A DNA stretch of 46,947 nucleotides, from NCBI GenBank assembly GCA_016650045.1, contig JAENWK010000008.1, forward strand, positions 1 through 46,947, written 5' to 3'. A model generated the notes under the pieces. It was not told where the DNA came from. It saw nothing but the letters and a program-made list of their open reading frames with translations, and did no database searches. Position 1 is the first letter of the stretch; the number at the start of each line of letters is the position of its first letter. Below are positions 5,941 through 42,754 of the stretch, piece by piece. This DNA comes from Eubacteriaceae bacterium. Its GTDB lineage: Bacteria; Bacillota; Clostridia; Eubacteriales; Eubacteriaceae. The translations under genes were made by a program, and so were the position numbers.

Positions 5941-6498
5941 ATGCACGAGGATGTAAAGACCGAACGAGAAAAAAGAAAAAAAATAAGACAACGAAAAAAA
6001 ATGCGCAGCACTATTGTAGCCATTACCCTTTTAATTGTAATCATGACGGTGGGAGTGGTGAATGCCCAAACACAGGGATATGAAGTTTTTTATCAGGGTC
6101 ACAGTCTTGGTTTTGTTCGAACGATGGGAGTATTTGATTCAGCAGTTGAACAACTAGAAGCAGGTCTTCGCAAGAGTTACAATAATGATGCTATTACCCT
6201 TGGTAATGGCTTTGAACTTGCGCAGGGCAGGGTTGAAAATCCTATGAATCTTGAAACATGTAACCAGGTTCTATTGAATAGTGGGATTGAACTTTATGTC
6301 AATGGTGCGATTATTTTAATCGATAATCAGGAAATAGGTGCCCTGGCATCTCTTGATGAAGCACAAAGTCTGATTAAAACCTATGAAAATCTATATCCCA
6401 ATGCCAACAATATCCGAACGATTGAAACAACGATTCCCTTAGCCGACACCAAGGATTTTGGAACAATACTTTCGCATATTAAAGGGATGAACAAATAA
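5941..6498 (+). CDS. Small secreted or membrane-anchored protein, unknown function
   Basis: A 185-residue protein with a highly basic N terminus (residues 8-23, many Lys and Arg), one hydrophobic segment (about 24-41) ending near VNAQ, and a soluble extracellular part. The soluble part holds two similar units, YEVFYQGHSLGFV (about 48-60) and IELYVNGAIILIDNQEIGALA (about 116-136), each followed by a helix with a DSAVEQL or DEAQSLI pattern. This strand-strand-helix unit resembles the N-terminal repeats of clostridial M23 peptidases and G5-containing cell-wall proteins, but no peptidase or G5 domain follows. RBS AAGGGG precedes the ATG. It may be a truncated or stand-alone wall-associated module. 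Function is not known. Confidence 0.7.
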   Translation: MHEDVKTEREKRKKIRQRKKMRSTIVAITLLIVIMTVGVVNAQTQGYEVFYQGHSLGFVRTMGVFDSAVEQLEAGLRKSYNNDAITLGNGFELAQGRVENPMNLETCNQVLLNSGIELYVNGAIILIDNQEIGALASLDEAQSLIKTYENLYPNANNIRTIETTIPLADTKDFGTILSHIKGMNK

Positions 6499-6538
6499 TG
6501 CGGCACTGTTATGCTATACTTGGAAAACAAGATGTAAA

Positions 6539-6574
6539 ATCACCAGCAAATTGATGTTGGTGATTTTGTTTTCA
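6539..6574 (+). terminator. Hairpin terminator after the 5941 gene
   Basis: ATCACCA and TTGGTGAT arms around a loop of about ten bases, then TTTGTTTT. It separates the secreted-protein gene from recX. Confidence 0.65.
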
Positions 6575-23915: not shown

Positions 23916-23920
23916 AGGTT

Positions 23921-24115
23921 TATCCCAAAGTGTTCGTGCTACTTTGTTTTTGAACCTACATCAATATTCAGGGAGTCTGATTGTTCAGAAGCAGATGTTA
24001 GGCCTCGTTTTATCAGTGGAAAACAGAAACTGATGACAAGACACCCACCTAGATTTCGCTAGGGCGTCAAAAATGAAGAACGGCACATTGGGATAGCACC
24101 TCAGGGTGCTTTTTT
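23921..24115 (+). ncRNA. ssrS: 6S RNA
   Basis: About 195 nt. The two ends pair: TATCCCAA (23921-23928) and following bases with TTGGGATA (near 24088-24095), and GTG/CAC behind them. The 5' side carries TTTTTGAACC and the 3' side of the central bubble has a short hairpin CCTAG/CTAGG (around 24051-24064), both seen in Firmicute 6S RNAs. An internal stem-loop ATCAGT/AACTGAT forms the distal part. It ends in the terminator 24095-24115. 6S RNA mimics an open promoter and binds sigma-A RNA polymerase. Size, own promoter, own terminator and no ORF support the call; no covariance search was possible. Confidence 0.75.
24095..24115 (+). terminator. Terminator of 6S RNA
   Basis: AGCACC, loop TCAG, GGTGCT and TTTTT. 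Confidence 0.85.
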
Positions 24116-38149: not shown

Positions 38150-38365
38150 ATGGCAGTAAAAAAATTAAAAGCAAAAATAAATCGTTTGGAAACCATTGCT
38201 GAGATTCTTGAAGGGGAAAATCAGGAAATTGAAGCATCTATTAAATTGTTTGAAGAAGGAATGAAGCTTATCAAAGAGTGCACCGGTGATTTAGATACTC
38301 TTGAAGGGAAAATTCTGGTTATGGTTGATGGTGAAGAAAAAGATTTTGAAGGGAGAACCATTTGA
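38150..38365 (+). CDS. xseB: Exodeoxyribonuclease VII small subunit
   Basis: A 71-residue helical hairpin protein, normal length for XseB. Signatures: RLETIAEILEGENQEIEASIKLFEEGMKLIKECTGDL. Several copies bind the coiled coil of XseA. Its TGA overlaps the ATG of ispA (TGATG). Confidence 0.95.
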   Translation: MAVKKLKAKINRLETIAEILEGENQEIEASIKLFEEGMKLIKECTGDLDTLEGKILVMVDGEEKDFEGRTI

Positions 38366-39261
38366 TGTTCGAATTCCAATCATTATTAAGAGAAAATGTC
38401 AGTTTGATTAATGAAAACCTGGAGAAAACATTTCAGGGGAATCTGGATACCCCGGAAGTAATTTTAGAATCCATGAAGTATAGTCTTTTTGCTGGTGGGA
38501 AACGTCTCAGGCCCATGCTGATGATTGAAACCTGCCGATCTCTTGATGGTGATGTGGAGGTTATCATGCCACTGGCTTTGGCCATGGAAATGATCCACAC
38601 TTACTCTCTGATTCATGATGATTTGCCGGCAATGGATAATGATGATTTCAGACGGGGCAAACCCACCAATCATAAAGTTTATGGTGATGCGACTGCAATT
38701 CTGGCTGGGGATGGCCTTCTGAATTATGCCATGGAAACGATGCTTGAGGGAGCCCAGGGACTTTCAGGTGAACTGTTGGATCGATATCTGACAGCCATGA
38801 AAATCATTATGCGGGCTTCTGGAATTTCAGGTATGATTGGCGGACAGGTCGCCGACATGCTCAGTGAAAATCGGGTTATTACCATAAATGAATTGAATTA
38901 TGTTCATTTGCATAAAACCGGGGCTCTTTTGGAAGCCAGTATTCATTGCGGTTGTATTATTGCCAATGCCGAACCGGCAACTCAGGGAAGATTAATTACC
39001 TATAGCAATCTCATTGGGTTAGCCTTCCAAATTGTGGATGATATTCTTGATATAGAAGGCACAGAAAGTGAGCTTGGAAAACCCGTTGGCAGTGATGAAA
39101 AAAATCATAAATCGACATTTGTTTCACTGTATGGACTGGAAGCATCGAAAATTAAAGTAGCAGAACTAAAAAGTGAAGCTTTGGAAATACTTAAACCTAT
39201 TGGTGAAAAATCGGAATTTCTTGAAAATTTAGCAGAGTATATTTGTAAGCGTCGAAAATAG
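38365..39261 (+). CDS. ispA: Geranylgeranyl/farnesyl diphosphate synthase
   Basis: A 298-residue trans-prenyltransferase. First Asp-rich motif DDLPAMDNDD (85-94), followed by FRRGKPTNHK; second motif DDILD (225-229), with GSDEKNHKSTF after it; GGKRLRP (44-50) for IPP binding. It condenses DMAPP with IPP to C15 in the IspA group. Residues before the first motif (HTYSLIHDD) are compatible with a C15 enzyme, but product length is not certain. The OLE RNA promoter starts 12 bases behind its stop. In other bacteria with OLE RNA the locus also lies next to ispA. Confidence 0.95.
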   Translation: MFEFQSLLRENVSLINENLEKTFQGNLDTPEVILESMKYSLFAGGKRLRPMLMIETCRSLDGDVEVIMPLALAMEMIHTYSLIHDDLPAMDNDDFRRGKPTNHKVYGDATAILAGDGLLNYAMETMLEGAQGLSGELLDRYLTAMKIIMRASGISGMIGGQVADMLSENRVITINELNYVHLHKTGALLEASIHCGCIIANAEPATQGRLITYSNLIGLAFQIVDDILDIEGTESELGKPVGSDEKNHKSTFVSLYGLEASKIKVAELKSEALEILKPIGEKSEFLENLAEYICKRRK

Positions 39262-39272
39262 TCTTTGACTTC

Positions 39273-39300
39273 TTGTTTTCGAACAAAACTATGATATAAT
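39273..39300 (+). promoter_or_regulatory. Promoter of OLE RNA
   Basis: TTGTTT (39273-39278), a 16-base spacer and perfect TATAAT (39295-39300). The predicted start near 39306 coincides with the first base of the closing stem of the RNA. Confidence 0.75.
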
Positions 39301-39305
39301 TAAGC

Positions 39306-39872
39306 TTCAGGTGGTGCAGTATCCTAGTCGGCACTGTCGATCTTCAGGGCGGGCCTAAAAATCCGTCGAAGGGCATATCGATGAAGTCCCTTATTTCTGC
39401 CTCTGACGCCCAGTCGGGGGTTGATTTAGGGGGTTAAGGAGGATGGGGCGATCCGCAATGGCATGCGGGCGTTGACCCTGCCTCCGTGGAGACCTGCATT
39501 TGCAGGAGTAACCTGTGAACGTGTTACCGCAAGGAGATACTGAAGCAGTGTAGCCTGCCTTGAGTGGCTTAGGTGGATGGATTGACAGTTTCATAAGCTA
39601 TTGGGCCCAAGGCTTAGAAATATTGCTCTTCGAAACCTAATCTGCAAAAGAGGCTAAGGATCGATTGGTGTTGCCGAGGAAAACTCCTAGGCTGTTTGAA
39701 AGAAGTATAATAGGGATTATGGTGTGCACTCAGTGGTAATTCAGTCTTGTATATGGCGACATTACAAAATGCATATAAAGGGAAACCGCTGGAACGGCGA
39801 CGTTTCAGTCGTGCATTGGGAAATCCTGCTGGACCTAAGTCGCAAAGTTTACTTATTATACTGCCACCTGAA
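39306..39872 (+). ncRNA. ole: OLE RNA (ornate, large, extremophilic)
   Basis: A 567-base non-coding stretch with no supportable ORF. Its two ends pair: TTCAGGTGGTGCAGTAT (39306-39322) with ATACTGCCACCTGAA (39858-39872), leaving a 2-base bulge. It has its own promoter before and terminator behind. Size (OLE RNAs are about 600 nt), GC content well above the neighbouring spacers, position between ispA and an OapA-type gene, and the stem-closed ends all match OLE RNA, one of the largest structured bacterial RNAs. It forms a membrane ribonucleoprotein with OapA in Halalkalibacterium halodurans and affects tolerance to cold, alcohol and Mg2+. Recognition rests on context plus structure; the covariance model was not run. 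Confidence 0.9.
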
Positions 39873-39885
39873 TTAATAAAGTATT

Positions 39886-39918
39886 TAAGGAATTATGATG
39901 ATTCATAGTTCCTTTTGT
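39886..39918 (+). terminator. Terminator of OLE RNA
   Basis: AAGGAATTATG and CATAGTTCCTT form an 11-base stem (one G-T pair) around ATGATT, then TTTTGTTG. Separates OLE RNA from oapA. Confidence 0.75.
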
Positions 39919-39960
39919 TGTATAATGATGTATAAATAATCATTGTCTTTAGGAGTATAG

Positions 39961-40533
39961 ATGAAAGTAAAATTATCAAAAAAAGCAATAAAAGAGAAGC
40001 GTCATCGACAGTGGGTTATTAATATTACCATTGCCACCTTTGTCCTGACCTTTCTCATCAGTTATATTTCAGATGCTATATTGTCCAACACACCTATTTT
40101 TGTTTCATTTATTATTTTACTGGTTATTATCAGTATTGGGATCATTTCAGATACCATTGGGATTGCGGTAACGGCGGTGGATATTCATCCGTTTAATGCC
40201 ATGTCTTCGAAAAGAATAAAAGGAGCAAAAACATCGGTGGCACTGGTGAAAGATGCCACGCGAGTGTCAAATTTTTGCAATGATGTTGTTGGGGATATTT
40301 GCGGCATCGTCAGTGGGGTAACCAGTATTACCATTGTGCTGCAATTAGCTGCCCATTATCCACCGATCAATGTCGCACTGATGACATTAGTTCTCAGCAG
40401 TGTTGTTGCTTCCATTACCGTTGGCGGGAAAGCTTTAGGAAAAGACATTGCCATGAAACATGGCACCGCCATTATTCATGGTTTGTCAGTCATCATTGCC
40501 AGTGTTAAAATAGCGGTTAAAGGCAGTGAATAA
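39961..40533 (+). CDS. oapA: OLE-associated membrane protein OapA
   Basis: A 190-residue membrane protein with a very basic start (residues 3-16) and hydrophobic segments at about 19-40, 46-72, 115-131 and 137-156. Directly behind OLE RNA, as OapA genes are. DTIGIAVTAVDIHPFNA (64-80) and an Asp108-x3-Asp112 motif in NDVVGDICGI are the conserved-looking parts. OapA holds OLE RNA at the membrane and is linked to Mg2+ homeostasis; the protein resembles Mg/Co transporter-type membrane domains. AGGAGT precedes the ATG. It has 89 bases between it and the RNA, including the terminator, so it may use a separate promoter (TATAAT near 39920). Confidence 0.9.
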   Translation: MKVKLSKKAIKEKRHRQWVINITIATFVLTFLISYISDAILSNTPIFVSFIILLVIISIGIISDTIGIAVTAVDIHPFNAMSSKRIKGAKTSVALVKDATRVSNFCNDVVGDICGIVSGVTSITIVLQLAAHYPPINVALMTLVLSSVVASITVGGKALGKDIAMKHGTAIIHGLSVIIASVKIAVKGSE

Positions 40534-40565
40534 GAACAATAGAAAATATCAGAAAAGAGGAAAAA

Positions 40566-41393
40566 TTGAAAGAACGTTTAGATAAATTATTAGTTGCAAA
40601 GGGACATTTTGATTCTCGGGAACGGGCAAAAAAAGCCATTATGGCTGGACTTATTCAAGTAAATGATCAAATAAAAGATAAAGCTGGGGATCTGGTTGAT
40701 ACCGAAGCCACAATTCTCGTTAAGGGTGGGGATATGCCCTATGCCAGTCGGGGTGGTTTAAAACTTGAAAAGGGATTAGTCGCTTTTCCAATGGTTGTCG
40801 CTGGAAAAACATTCATTGATGTCGGGTCTTCGACCGGAGGTTTTACAGATTGTCTGCTCCAAAATGGCGCAACCAGGGTTTATGCCGTGGATGTCGGCTA
40901 TGGTCAGCTGGACTGGAAGCTTCGTAACGATGAACGCGTCGTTTCCATGGAGCGCACCAATTTTCGTCATCTGACAGTTAATGATATTCCGGAAATGGTG
41001 GATGGCACGGTAATGGATGTTTCATTTATATCCATCATCAAGCTTTTTGATGCGATCCAAACCTTTATGAAGCCGGGAGCACAAGGTATTTGGCTCATTA
41101 AACCTCAATTTGAAGCCGGTCGGGATCGAATTGGAAAAAATGGTGTTGTACGTGAAAAAAAGATCCATGCTGATGTATTATTTCATGTACTTACCGCCAT
41201 TGAAAATCACGGATTTTCAGTGAAGGGTCTGGATTTTTCTCCGATTCAGGGACCGAAAGGAAATATTGAATTTCTTGTTTTTGTCGAAAATACTGAATCT
41301 GATGAAAGCTATCCATGGACTGAAAAAATTGAAAATGTGGTCACACTGGCCCATGAAAGCTGTCACAAAAAAAAGGAACCAAATGTTGAATAG
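40566..41393 (+). CDS. tlyA: TlyA family rRNA 2'-O-methyltransferase/hemolysin-like
   Basis: A 275-residue protein with an N-terminal S4 RNA-binding domain (about 1-60: ERLDKLLVAKGHFDSRERAKKAIMAGLIQVN) and a FtsJ-like SAM methyltransferase domain with FIDVGSSTGGFTDCLLQNGA (about 79-98) and the KPQFEAGR motif. Mycobacterial TlyA methylates 16S C1409 and 23S C1920; the Bacillus ortholog is YqxC. Start TTG with AGAGG upstream. Order tlyA-nadK-argR-recN is the standard Firmicute arrangement. Confidence 0.93.
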   Translation: MKERLDKLLVAKGHFDSRERAKKAIMAGLIQVNDQIKDKAGDLVDTEATILVKGGDMPYASRGGLKLEKGLVAFPMVVAGKTFIDVGSSTGGFTDCLLQNGATRVYAVDVGYGQLDWKLRNDERVVSMERTNFRHLTVNDIPEMVDGTVMDVSFISIIKLFDAIQTFMKPGAQGIWLIKPQFEAGRDRIGKNGVVREKKIHADVLFHVLTAIENHGFSVKGLDFSPIQGPKGNIEFLVFVENTESDESYPWTEKIENVVTLAHESCHKKKEPNVE

Positions 41394-42304: not shown

Positions 42305-42754
42305 ATGAAAGTTGCAAGACAAATAAAAATTATTGAAATCATCGAAAATAGCATTATTGAAACCCAGGAGGATCTTGCCCAGGCGCTAAAGGATAACGGT
42401 TTTACCGTGACTCAGGCGACCATCTCAAGAGATATTAAAGAATTAAAATTAATTAAGATCATCAGTAATGATGGCGTTCAACATTATGCACCACTTAAAG
42501 ATATTAGCGCCATTTATAATGAACGGGTCACTGCTGTTTTCAGAGAATCTGTTTTAACCGTGGACTTTGTCGAAAATAGTATTGTGTTAAGAACATTGCC
42601 AGCCATGGCTCAGGCAGCGGCTTTAGCCATTGATGGTCTGGAATGGAATGAAGTTGTGGGAACCATTGCCGGAGATGATACTATTTTTGTTTTAATCCGT
42701 AATCGCGATCTGGTTCCAGAAATCGTAGGTAAATTCAAAAAGCTGATGAAATAA
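42305..42754 (+). CDS. argR: Arginine repressor ArgR
   Basis: A 149-residue hexameric regulator. N-terminal winged helix (about 1-70: IETQEDLAQALKDNGFTVTQATISRDIKELKLIKI) and C-terminal arginine-binding domain with GTIAGDDTIFVLIRN (about 119-133). It controls arginine synthesis and catabolism in response to arginine. Its place before recN is conserved among Gram-positives. GAGGAGCAGAAG is upstream of ATG. Confidence 0.96.
   Translation: MKVARQIKIIEIIENSIIETQEDLAQALKDNGFTVTQATISRDIKELKLIKIISNDGVQHYAPLKDISAIYNERVTAVFRESVLTVDFVENSIVLRTLPAMAQAAALAIDGLEWNEVVGTIAGDDTIFVLIRNRDLVPEIVGKFKKLMK

Follow-up and report, generated by a model that had tools for sequence, protein, structure and literature searches.

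The window analysed here spans 46,947 nt (positions 1 to 46,947 of contig JAENWK010000008.1, assembly GCA_016650045.1 of a Eubacteriaceae bacterium; genome G000 below). It carries an OLE RNA and, behind it, a gene for the membrane protein OapA. Both lie between ispA and tlyA, and all four are on the forward strand. The features of the locus, in window coordinates, are:

38362..39261, + strand: ispA, farnesyl diphosphate synthase, upstream (NCBIfam NF045485, 359.5 bits)
39295..39883, + strand: OLE RNA, whole Rfam model RF01071 (cmscan, 462.6 bits, E 9.9e-133)
39309-39315 with 39863-39869, + strand: P1, the closing helix (RNAalifold; 609/658 cells paired, 92.6%)
39316-39319 with 39692-39695 and 39323-39327 with 39687-39691, + strand: P2 (840/845 cells paired)
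39324-39327 and 39687-39690, + strand: palindromic CUAG boxes in P2 (CUAG in 93/94 sequences at each)
39329-39333 with 39669-39673, + strand: P3 (423/470 cells paired)
39337-39343 with 39658-39664, + strand: P3.1 (600/649 cells paired)
39603..39608, + strand: P9 loop GGGCCC, self-complementary, the published dimer kissing loop
39887..39914, + strand: terminator-like hairpin between ole and oapA (consensus scan; 12 pairs, T-rich tail)
39961..40533, + strand: oapA, 190 aa, CNNM-like membrane protein with D108-x3-D112 (ORF, alignment, model)
40566..41393, + strand: tlyA, S4 and FtsJ rRNA methyltransferase, downstream (TIGR00478, 254 bits; PF01728, PF01479)

OLE RNA is among the largest conserved bacterial RNAs without known biochemical function. 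The original prediction of a complete copy between ispA and tlyA was borne out: the covariance match covers positions 1-616 of the 616-position model, far above the gathering score of 50, and the family matches listed above confirm both neighbours. The RNA was also said to be free of ORFs, and the ORF list indeed holds none of at least 70 aa on either strand between the end of ispA (39261) and 39961. Folding of 39306-39876 gave a minimum free energy of -210.7 kcal/mol, far below that of shuffled sequences (mean -178.7, sd 6.6; z -4.84), none of 100 being as stable. Its identity as OLE RNA is near certain, and the interpretation as an OLE RNA-OapA locus is supported. The RNA agrees with the full-length type of OLE RNA (RF01071; Fernando and Breaker 2024) in matching the whole model, in its size and P1-P9 layout and in its dimer loop; oapA likewise follows it, and its genome holds genes for OapB and OapC. 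It departs from the typical OLE in a rather short P7-P8 span of 64 nt. A rough pattern could measure this span in 72 of the 94 sequences: the median is 88 nt, and 19 of the 72, the window included, have at most 64 nt. Apart from this span the copy is ordinary and belongs to an already known RNA class.

To assess the structure, we built an alignment of 94 OLE sequences, made up of the window sequence, 27 of 28 loci of relatives (L106 is cut off by a contig end) and 66 of the 75 OLE found at 80 named OapA loci, themselves the best 80 of 154. The other nine comprise two duplicates (L002 = L089, L003 = L088) and seven incomplete sequences. Of the 13015 cells at the 145 model pairs of the window, 11182 (85.9%) are paired, compared with 42-47% after the partner is slid by 1-3 bases, and both sides have changed at 119 of the 145 pairs. 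The window OLE thus shares a conserved secondary structure with compensatory change. Helices P1, P2, P3 and P3.1, which the Rfam structure line lacks, come from RNAalifold on the 94 sequences, and their pairing is kept in 90-99% of cells. A 17-base pairing of the two RNA ends had been proposed. Its outer part stands as P1, with two-sided change at 6 of 7 pairs, but its inner extension (39317-39322 with 39858-39863) is poorly kept (428/562 cells, 76%) and competes with P2 and with one stem of the Rfam model.

The conserved helices and loops coincide with elements described for OLE elsewhere. PMC12265935 describes two palindromic OapA sites, one of them in or near P2, where the CUAG boxes lie, and reports a proposal that one OLE helix crosses the membrane, which we take to be P3/P3.1. 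Together P3 and P3.1 comprise 12 bp, all with two-sided change, and their sequence covaries freely. The CUAGUC box and the P4 motif are 21 nt apart in 71, 20 nt in 10 and 19 nt in 1 of the 82 sequences in which both anchors could be placed (of the other 12, 11 lack an anchor and one gave a false match). We considered this constancy as a test of membrane crossing and rejected it: other core segments are equally constant in the 30 of 94 sequences with all anchors, so the 19-21 nt spacing fits the membrane-crossing model without favouring it. The P9 loop forms the dimer kissing contact in published structures, as described in PMC12265935 and PMC12286853. Its inner 4-mer is self-complementary in 81 of the 83 gap-free sequences among the 94 (GGCC in 69, AGCU in 12), against a background of 5%. 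With its model match, covariation, helices and P9 loop, the window copy has the checked parts of a functional OLE. Nothing found speaks for decay or loss of function, which has a negligible probability in view of the full model match, the covariation, 91.7% identity to the A. bakii OLE over 589 compared positions and the open oapA frame.

The gene oapA lies 77 bases past the end of the OLE model. One rival reading makes the RNA a leader acting in cis on oapA alone, its partner proteins being incidental. The gene directly behind and the terminator-like hairpin in between are what a switch would have. Five such hairpin sites occur on both strands of 38800-40700 where 1.1 are expected, so this one is no proof of function. 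A search for a sigma-70-like site on the ole strand upstream of the RNA (38800-39306) found none, a point against the reading as a functional RNP locus. Against a leader stand the closed unit of about 560 nt with paired ends and a conserved self-complementary loop, the trans-acting RNP demonstrated in published work, and an OLE-positive relative from the same order (G042) that has no oapA ORF right behind its OLE. We consider a pure leader very improbable.

The protein encoded behind the RNA had been predicted to be an OapA-type membrane protein with an Asp-x3-Asp motif, and D108 and D112 are invariant in all 30 aligned OapA sequences. No Pfam or NCBIfam family matches the 190-aa protein above cut-off. 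Its AlphaFold2 model (pLDDT 86.3) superimposes on the transmembrane domain of MtCorB (7m1t_A) with Z 13.3 and an rmsd of 2.3 over 128 residues, a score barely higher than the Z of about 13 that mostly helical models can reach by chance. A bacterial CorC domain follows with Z 11.6, and the next unrelated chain with Z 8.0. Foldseek alone ranked CNNM chains first to third with the same model, at an E of only 0.02, and a profile comparison with MpfA-type CNNM domains aligned 132 columns with a probability of 79.5%. OapA is thus predicted to have a CNNM-like membrane fold, and the fold and profile results together repeat the OapA-CNNM kinship reported in PMC11332333. In the model, residues 44-182 would share the transmembrane fold of the Mg2+ transporters MpfA, CorC and CorB (CNNM, PF01595). 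Unlike these, OapA has a DxxxD motif and no further domain was found in it; its GGKxxGK motif aligns where CNNM proteins have GExxPK. The MpfA combination of a PF01595 match over the cut-off with CBS and CorC domains was found neither in OapA nor in its genome. Within the OapA family the protein shows no notable difference: it shares DxxxD, the predicted CNNM-like fold, GGKxxGK and the position behind ole, and is 81% identical to A. bakii OapA.

Genes for the other two OLE-associated proteins were both found elsewhere in the genome, so that G000 carries genes for all three Oap partners. The OapB ORF (100 aa; L210 4963-5265) has its best PDB match in 7k9b, OLE-associated protein B (E 1.9e-14), and is flanked by ORFs that we take to be map and infA. 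A KOW family search picked up two ORFs, apparently RplX and NusG, and OapB was instead located through its position. The OapC (YbxF-type) ORF (79 aa; L207 1474-1713) matches YbxF 4lck with E 3e-11 and has an rpoC-like ORF on one side and an rpsL-like ORF on the other. In the window, an ORF at 42305-42754, the third gene downstream from oapA, reads by eye as ArgR, a protein that PMC12265935 mentions as an unpublished candidate OLE partner.

The host belongs to Acetobacterium in the GTDB sense, the genus that also holds A. bakii (G008) and A. tundrae (G013), and given this genus the label of probable acetogen is reasonable. Its assembly comprises 2.23 Mb in 217 contigs and is 98.9% complete; among the 19 genomes compared within the genus none is smaller, the others, some incomplete, having 2.7-4.1 Mb. 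The copy had been singled out as a good comparative case. Its presence stands as claimed; what could not be seen from one sequence is that OLE is patchy within the genus. OLE is present in 5 of the 19 genomes, and OapA in exactly the same five: G000, A. bakii, A. tundrae, probable A. fimetarium (G016) and probable A. paludosum (G017). It is absent from, among others, probable A. woodii (G009) and probable strain ES3 (G014). Among the other family genomes searched, 17 of 18 have it.

In all 11 readable junctions of the OLE-negative genomes ispA is followed directly by tlyA, with a gap of 26-99 bp from match to match, and over the length that the contigs cover the other genes keep their order. 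In the remaining three of the 14 negatives the contig breaks off at this place or tlyA gave no match. In all eight other family members examined, oapA precedes tlyA-nadK-argR-recN. The simplest reading is vertical descent with clean joint loss of ole and oapA. A FastTree phylogeny of ten concatenated neighbourhood proteins only (27 taxa, with 18 of the 19 genus genomes, G018 being left out, and with fewer genes for G004, G015 and the family outgroups) places the OLE-negatives in two groups, a woodii branch nested among OLE-positives and a basal ES3 branch, with key supports of 0.98-1.00. This implies at least two losses within the genus.

At a few loci one of the two, RNA or protein, was found without the other. 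Among the best 80 of the 154 named OapA loci, five have no OLE; four of these have fewer than 350 bases before oapA, and L054, with 6 kb, still has none. The latter encodes an OapA homologue (6001-6543) from a Clostridiales MAG, and its whole 9.8-kb locus contains no OLE at the gathering score. The OLE of G042 (L087 1501-2110) is full-length (469.6 bits); no oapA is adjacent, since no ORF of at least 80 aa lies between the OLE end and 2949, and the OapA of the window as a query found no match within 20 kb around this RNA.

We then compared the distribution of OLE with that of CNNM exporters. Among 61 relatives searched, CNNM (PF01595) genes occur in 32 of 32 OLE-negative genomes, and a strong CNNM match is missing in 17 of 29 OLE-positive genomes versus none of the 32; the 17, counted by hand, have at most weak PF01595 matches of OapA size. 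In the genus, one CNNM clade of 415-437 aa, MpfA-A, shows a reciprocal pattern with OLE: all 14 OLE-negative genomes have it, but of the five OLE-positive ones only A. bakii does, and it is missing from G000, G013, G016 and G017. Sister sequences of MpfA-A occur in the family members G019, G022 and G034. In G013, G016 and G017 the radical-SAM neighbours of mpfA-A are present, and mpfA-A is missing together with the adjacent cdaR-like gene; because these neighbours lie within contigs of 135-331 kb, the absence is no assembly gap at that place. G000 shows no close match to the radical-SAM neighbour. It is also the sole genome among the 19 without a PF01595 match, an absence that could be a gap because the assembly is in 217 contigs. 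The exchange is not strict, since A. bakii has both and four of the five OLE-positive genus genomes carry some CNNM; G013, G016 and G017 have another paralogue, MpfA-B.

The same bias appears class-wide. Among 156 genomes, a strong CNNM match (best E below 1e-20, counted by hand) is lacking in 28 of 74 OLE-positive versus 5 of 82 OLE-negative ones. Fisher tests gave 9.7e-8 (61 relatives), 1.1e-6 (156 class-wide genomes) and 0.0013 (MpfA-A within the genus), values that ignore relatedness and come from overlapping sets. The class-wide OLE search used stricter filters, with at most five candidates scored per genome, so weak OLE may be missed among the 82 negatives, of which five were re-searched. 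We rejected a strict rule by which no genome lacks both OLE and MpfA: all 61 relatives obey it, but 5 of the 156 genomes do not. These five, G064, G130, G174, G154 and G197, have neither OLE nor a strong CNNM match, and searching them for OLE again with laxer settings gave no match. G064 and G174 have a weak CNNM match of OapA size, and G130 has none. These three belong to one genus of 0.8-0.9-Mb genomes, in which they make up three of the four members sampled; the fourth, G092, has a lower-scoring OLE (356.8 bits). The three possibly carry OLE or OapA variants below detection.

Could the MpfA-A/OLE pattern in the genus be a coincidence of few losses? On the tree OLE and MpfA-A were each lost only about twice, the Fisher values take no account of relatedness, and MpfA-B is present in three OLE-positive species. 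Yet the bias recurs among the 61 relatives and the 156 class-wide genomes, and PMC11332333 describes an OLE/MpfA anticorrelation in Bacillota across over 17,000 assemblies. We regard coincidence as rather unlikely; the genus pattern agrees with the published anticorrelation and turns it into a within-genus natural experiment.

The locus probably encodes a complete functional OLE RNP, a dimer that OapA would hold at the membrane and that would serve metal and membrane homeostasis under stress. The present analysis shows the identity of the RNA, its conserved structure, genes for the three Oap partners and the reciprocal pattern with one MpfA paralogue. The literature on H. halodurans and cryo-EM of the C. 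acetobutylicum RNA supply the location at the membrane, the dimer, the binding of partners and the stress phenotypes. By analogy they would hold in Acetobacterium, and function would be exchanged with MpfA; the mechanism as a whole (a membrane RNP with a CNNM-like partner in metal and stress homeostasis), taken from other species, is likely to apply. The OLE RNA would most likely dimerise, and OapA would hold it at the membrane; OapC would bind the k-turn near P5, and OapB P12.2/P13. OapA may act as a divalent-metal transport domain of the CNNM type that lacks the regulatory CBS and CorC domains. MpfA-type exporters carry these on the protein; here the OLE RNA might take their place, an idea put forward in PMC11332333. 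The complex would maintain divalent metal and membrane homeostasis under cold, alcohol and high Mg2+. As OapA is the only CNNM-like protein found in G000, the particle there probably does alone the job of the MpfA exporter in OLE-free sister species.

A. tundrae is reportedly cold-tolerant, according to the title of Simankova 2000. If the two tentative species names hold, all four isolates among the five OLE-positive genomes are described as cold-tolerant. PMC6239172 states that the cold-active acetogens isolated from cold sites are all Acetobacterium, with growth down to 1 C, names A. bakii, A. paludosum and A. fimetarium, and puts the optimal temperature of A. bakii at 20 C and that of A. 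woodii at 30 C; for ES3 the best range is 30-35 C (PMC10625859). H. halodurans OLE knockouts are described as sensitive to cold, alcohol and Mg2+ in PMC9723947, and as cold-sensitive in PMC11332333 too. The 17 of 18 other family genomes that keep OLE, and the number of losses, only two, speak against a simple cold rule. The cold link thus rests on few independent events and may reflect phylogenetic inertia, with OLE retained in cold-tolerant species for reasons unrelated to temperature. In line with inertia, the cold-tolerant species occupy two adjacent branches, only two losses are implied within the genus, and some of the other family members that keep OLE are probably mesophilic; on the other hand, each loss includes a tentatively named mesophile (A. 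woodii, ES3), and the H. halodurans knockouts are cold-sensitive. We see the arguments for and against inertia as evenly balanced. A more specific scenario, which we put forward tentatively and consider doubtful, is that OLE-OapA and MpfA-A are alternative solutions to one task in Acetobacterium: the ancestor would have had both and every lineage kept at least one, the cold lineages keeping the RNA since it works at low temperature and the mesophiles dropping OLE at least twice.

The within-genus presence and absence of OLE, the reciprocal MpfA-A pattern and the alignment with cold tolerance are new as far as searched. The literature search returned no co-mention of OLE RNA with Acetobacterium or with psychrophily, and the supplements of PMC6239172 and PMC11332333 might list OLE; OLE RNA and acetogens are co-mentioned in a soda-lake metagenome study. 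Since ole-oapA is kept in some Acetobacterium and cleanly lost in others, close relatives can be compared for OLE function. OLE genetics met in this literature rests on one alkaliphile, and in a genus of culturable acetogens one locus is now seen to be either cleanly there or cleanly missing, the tree implies two losses, an MpfA paralogue shows the reciprocal pattern, and one OLE-positive member has public transcriptomes from cold and warm growth. Two ideas become directly testable in Acetobacterium: replacement of OLE by MpfA, and a role of OLE in cold adaptation. The transcriptomes are RNA-seq data of A. bakii at 10 and 20 C under autotrophic and heterotrophic conditions (ENA PRJEB21929), described in PMC6239172; ole of this species lies at L002 5295-5885. 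The main text of that study does not contain "OLE" as a whole word, and it reports 87 putative ncRNAs containing a start site. In the window itself, a 6S RNA lies at 23919-24098 (72.1 bits).
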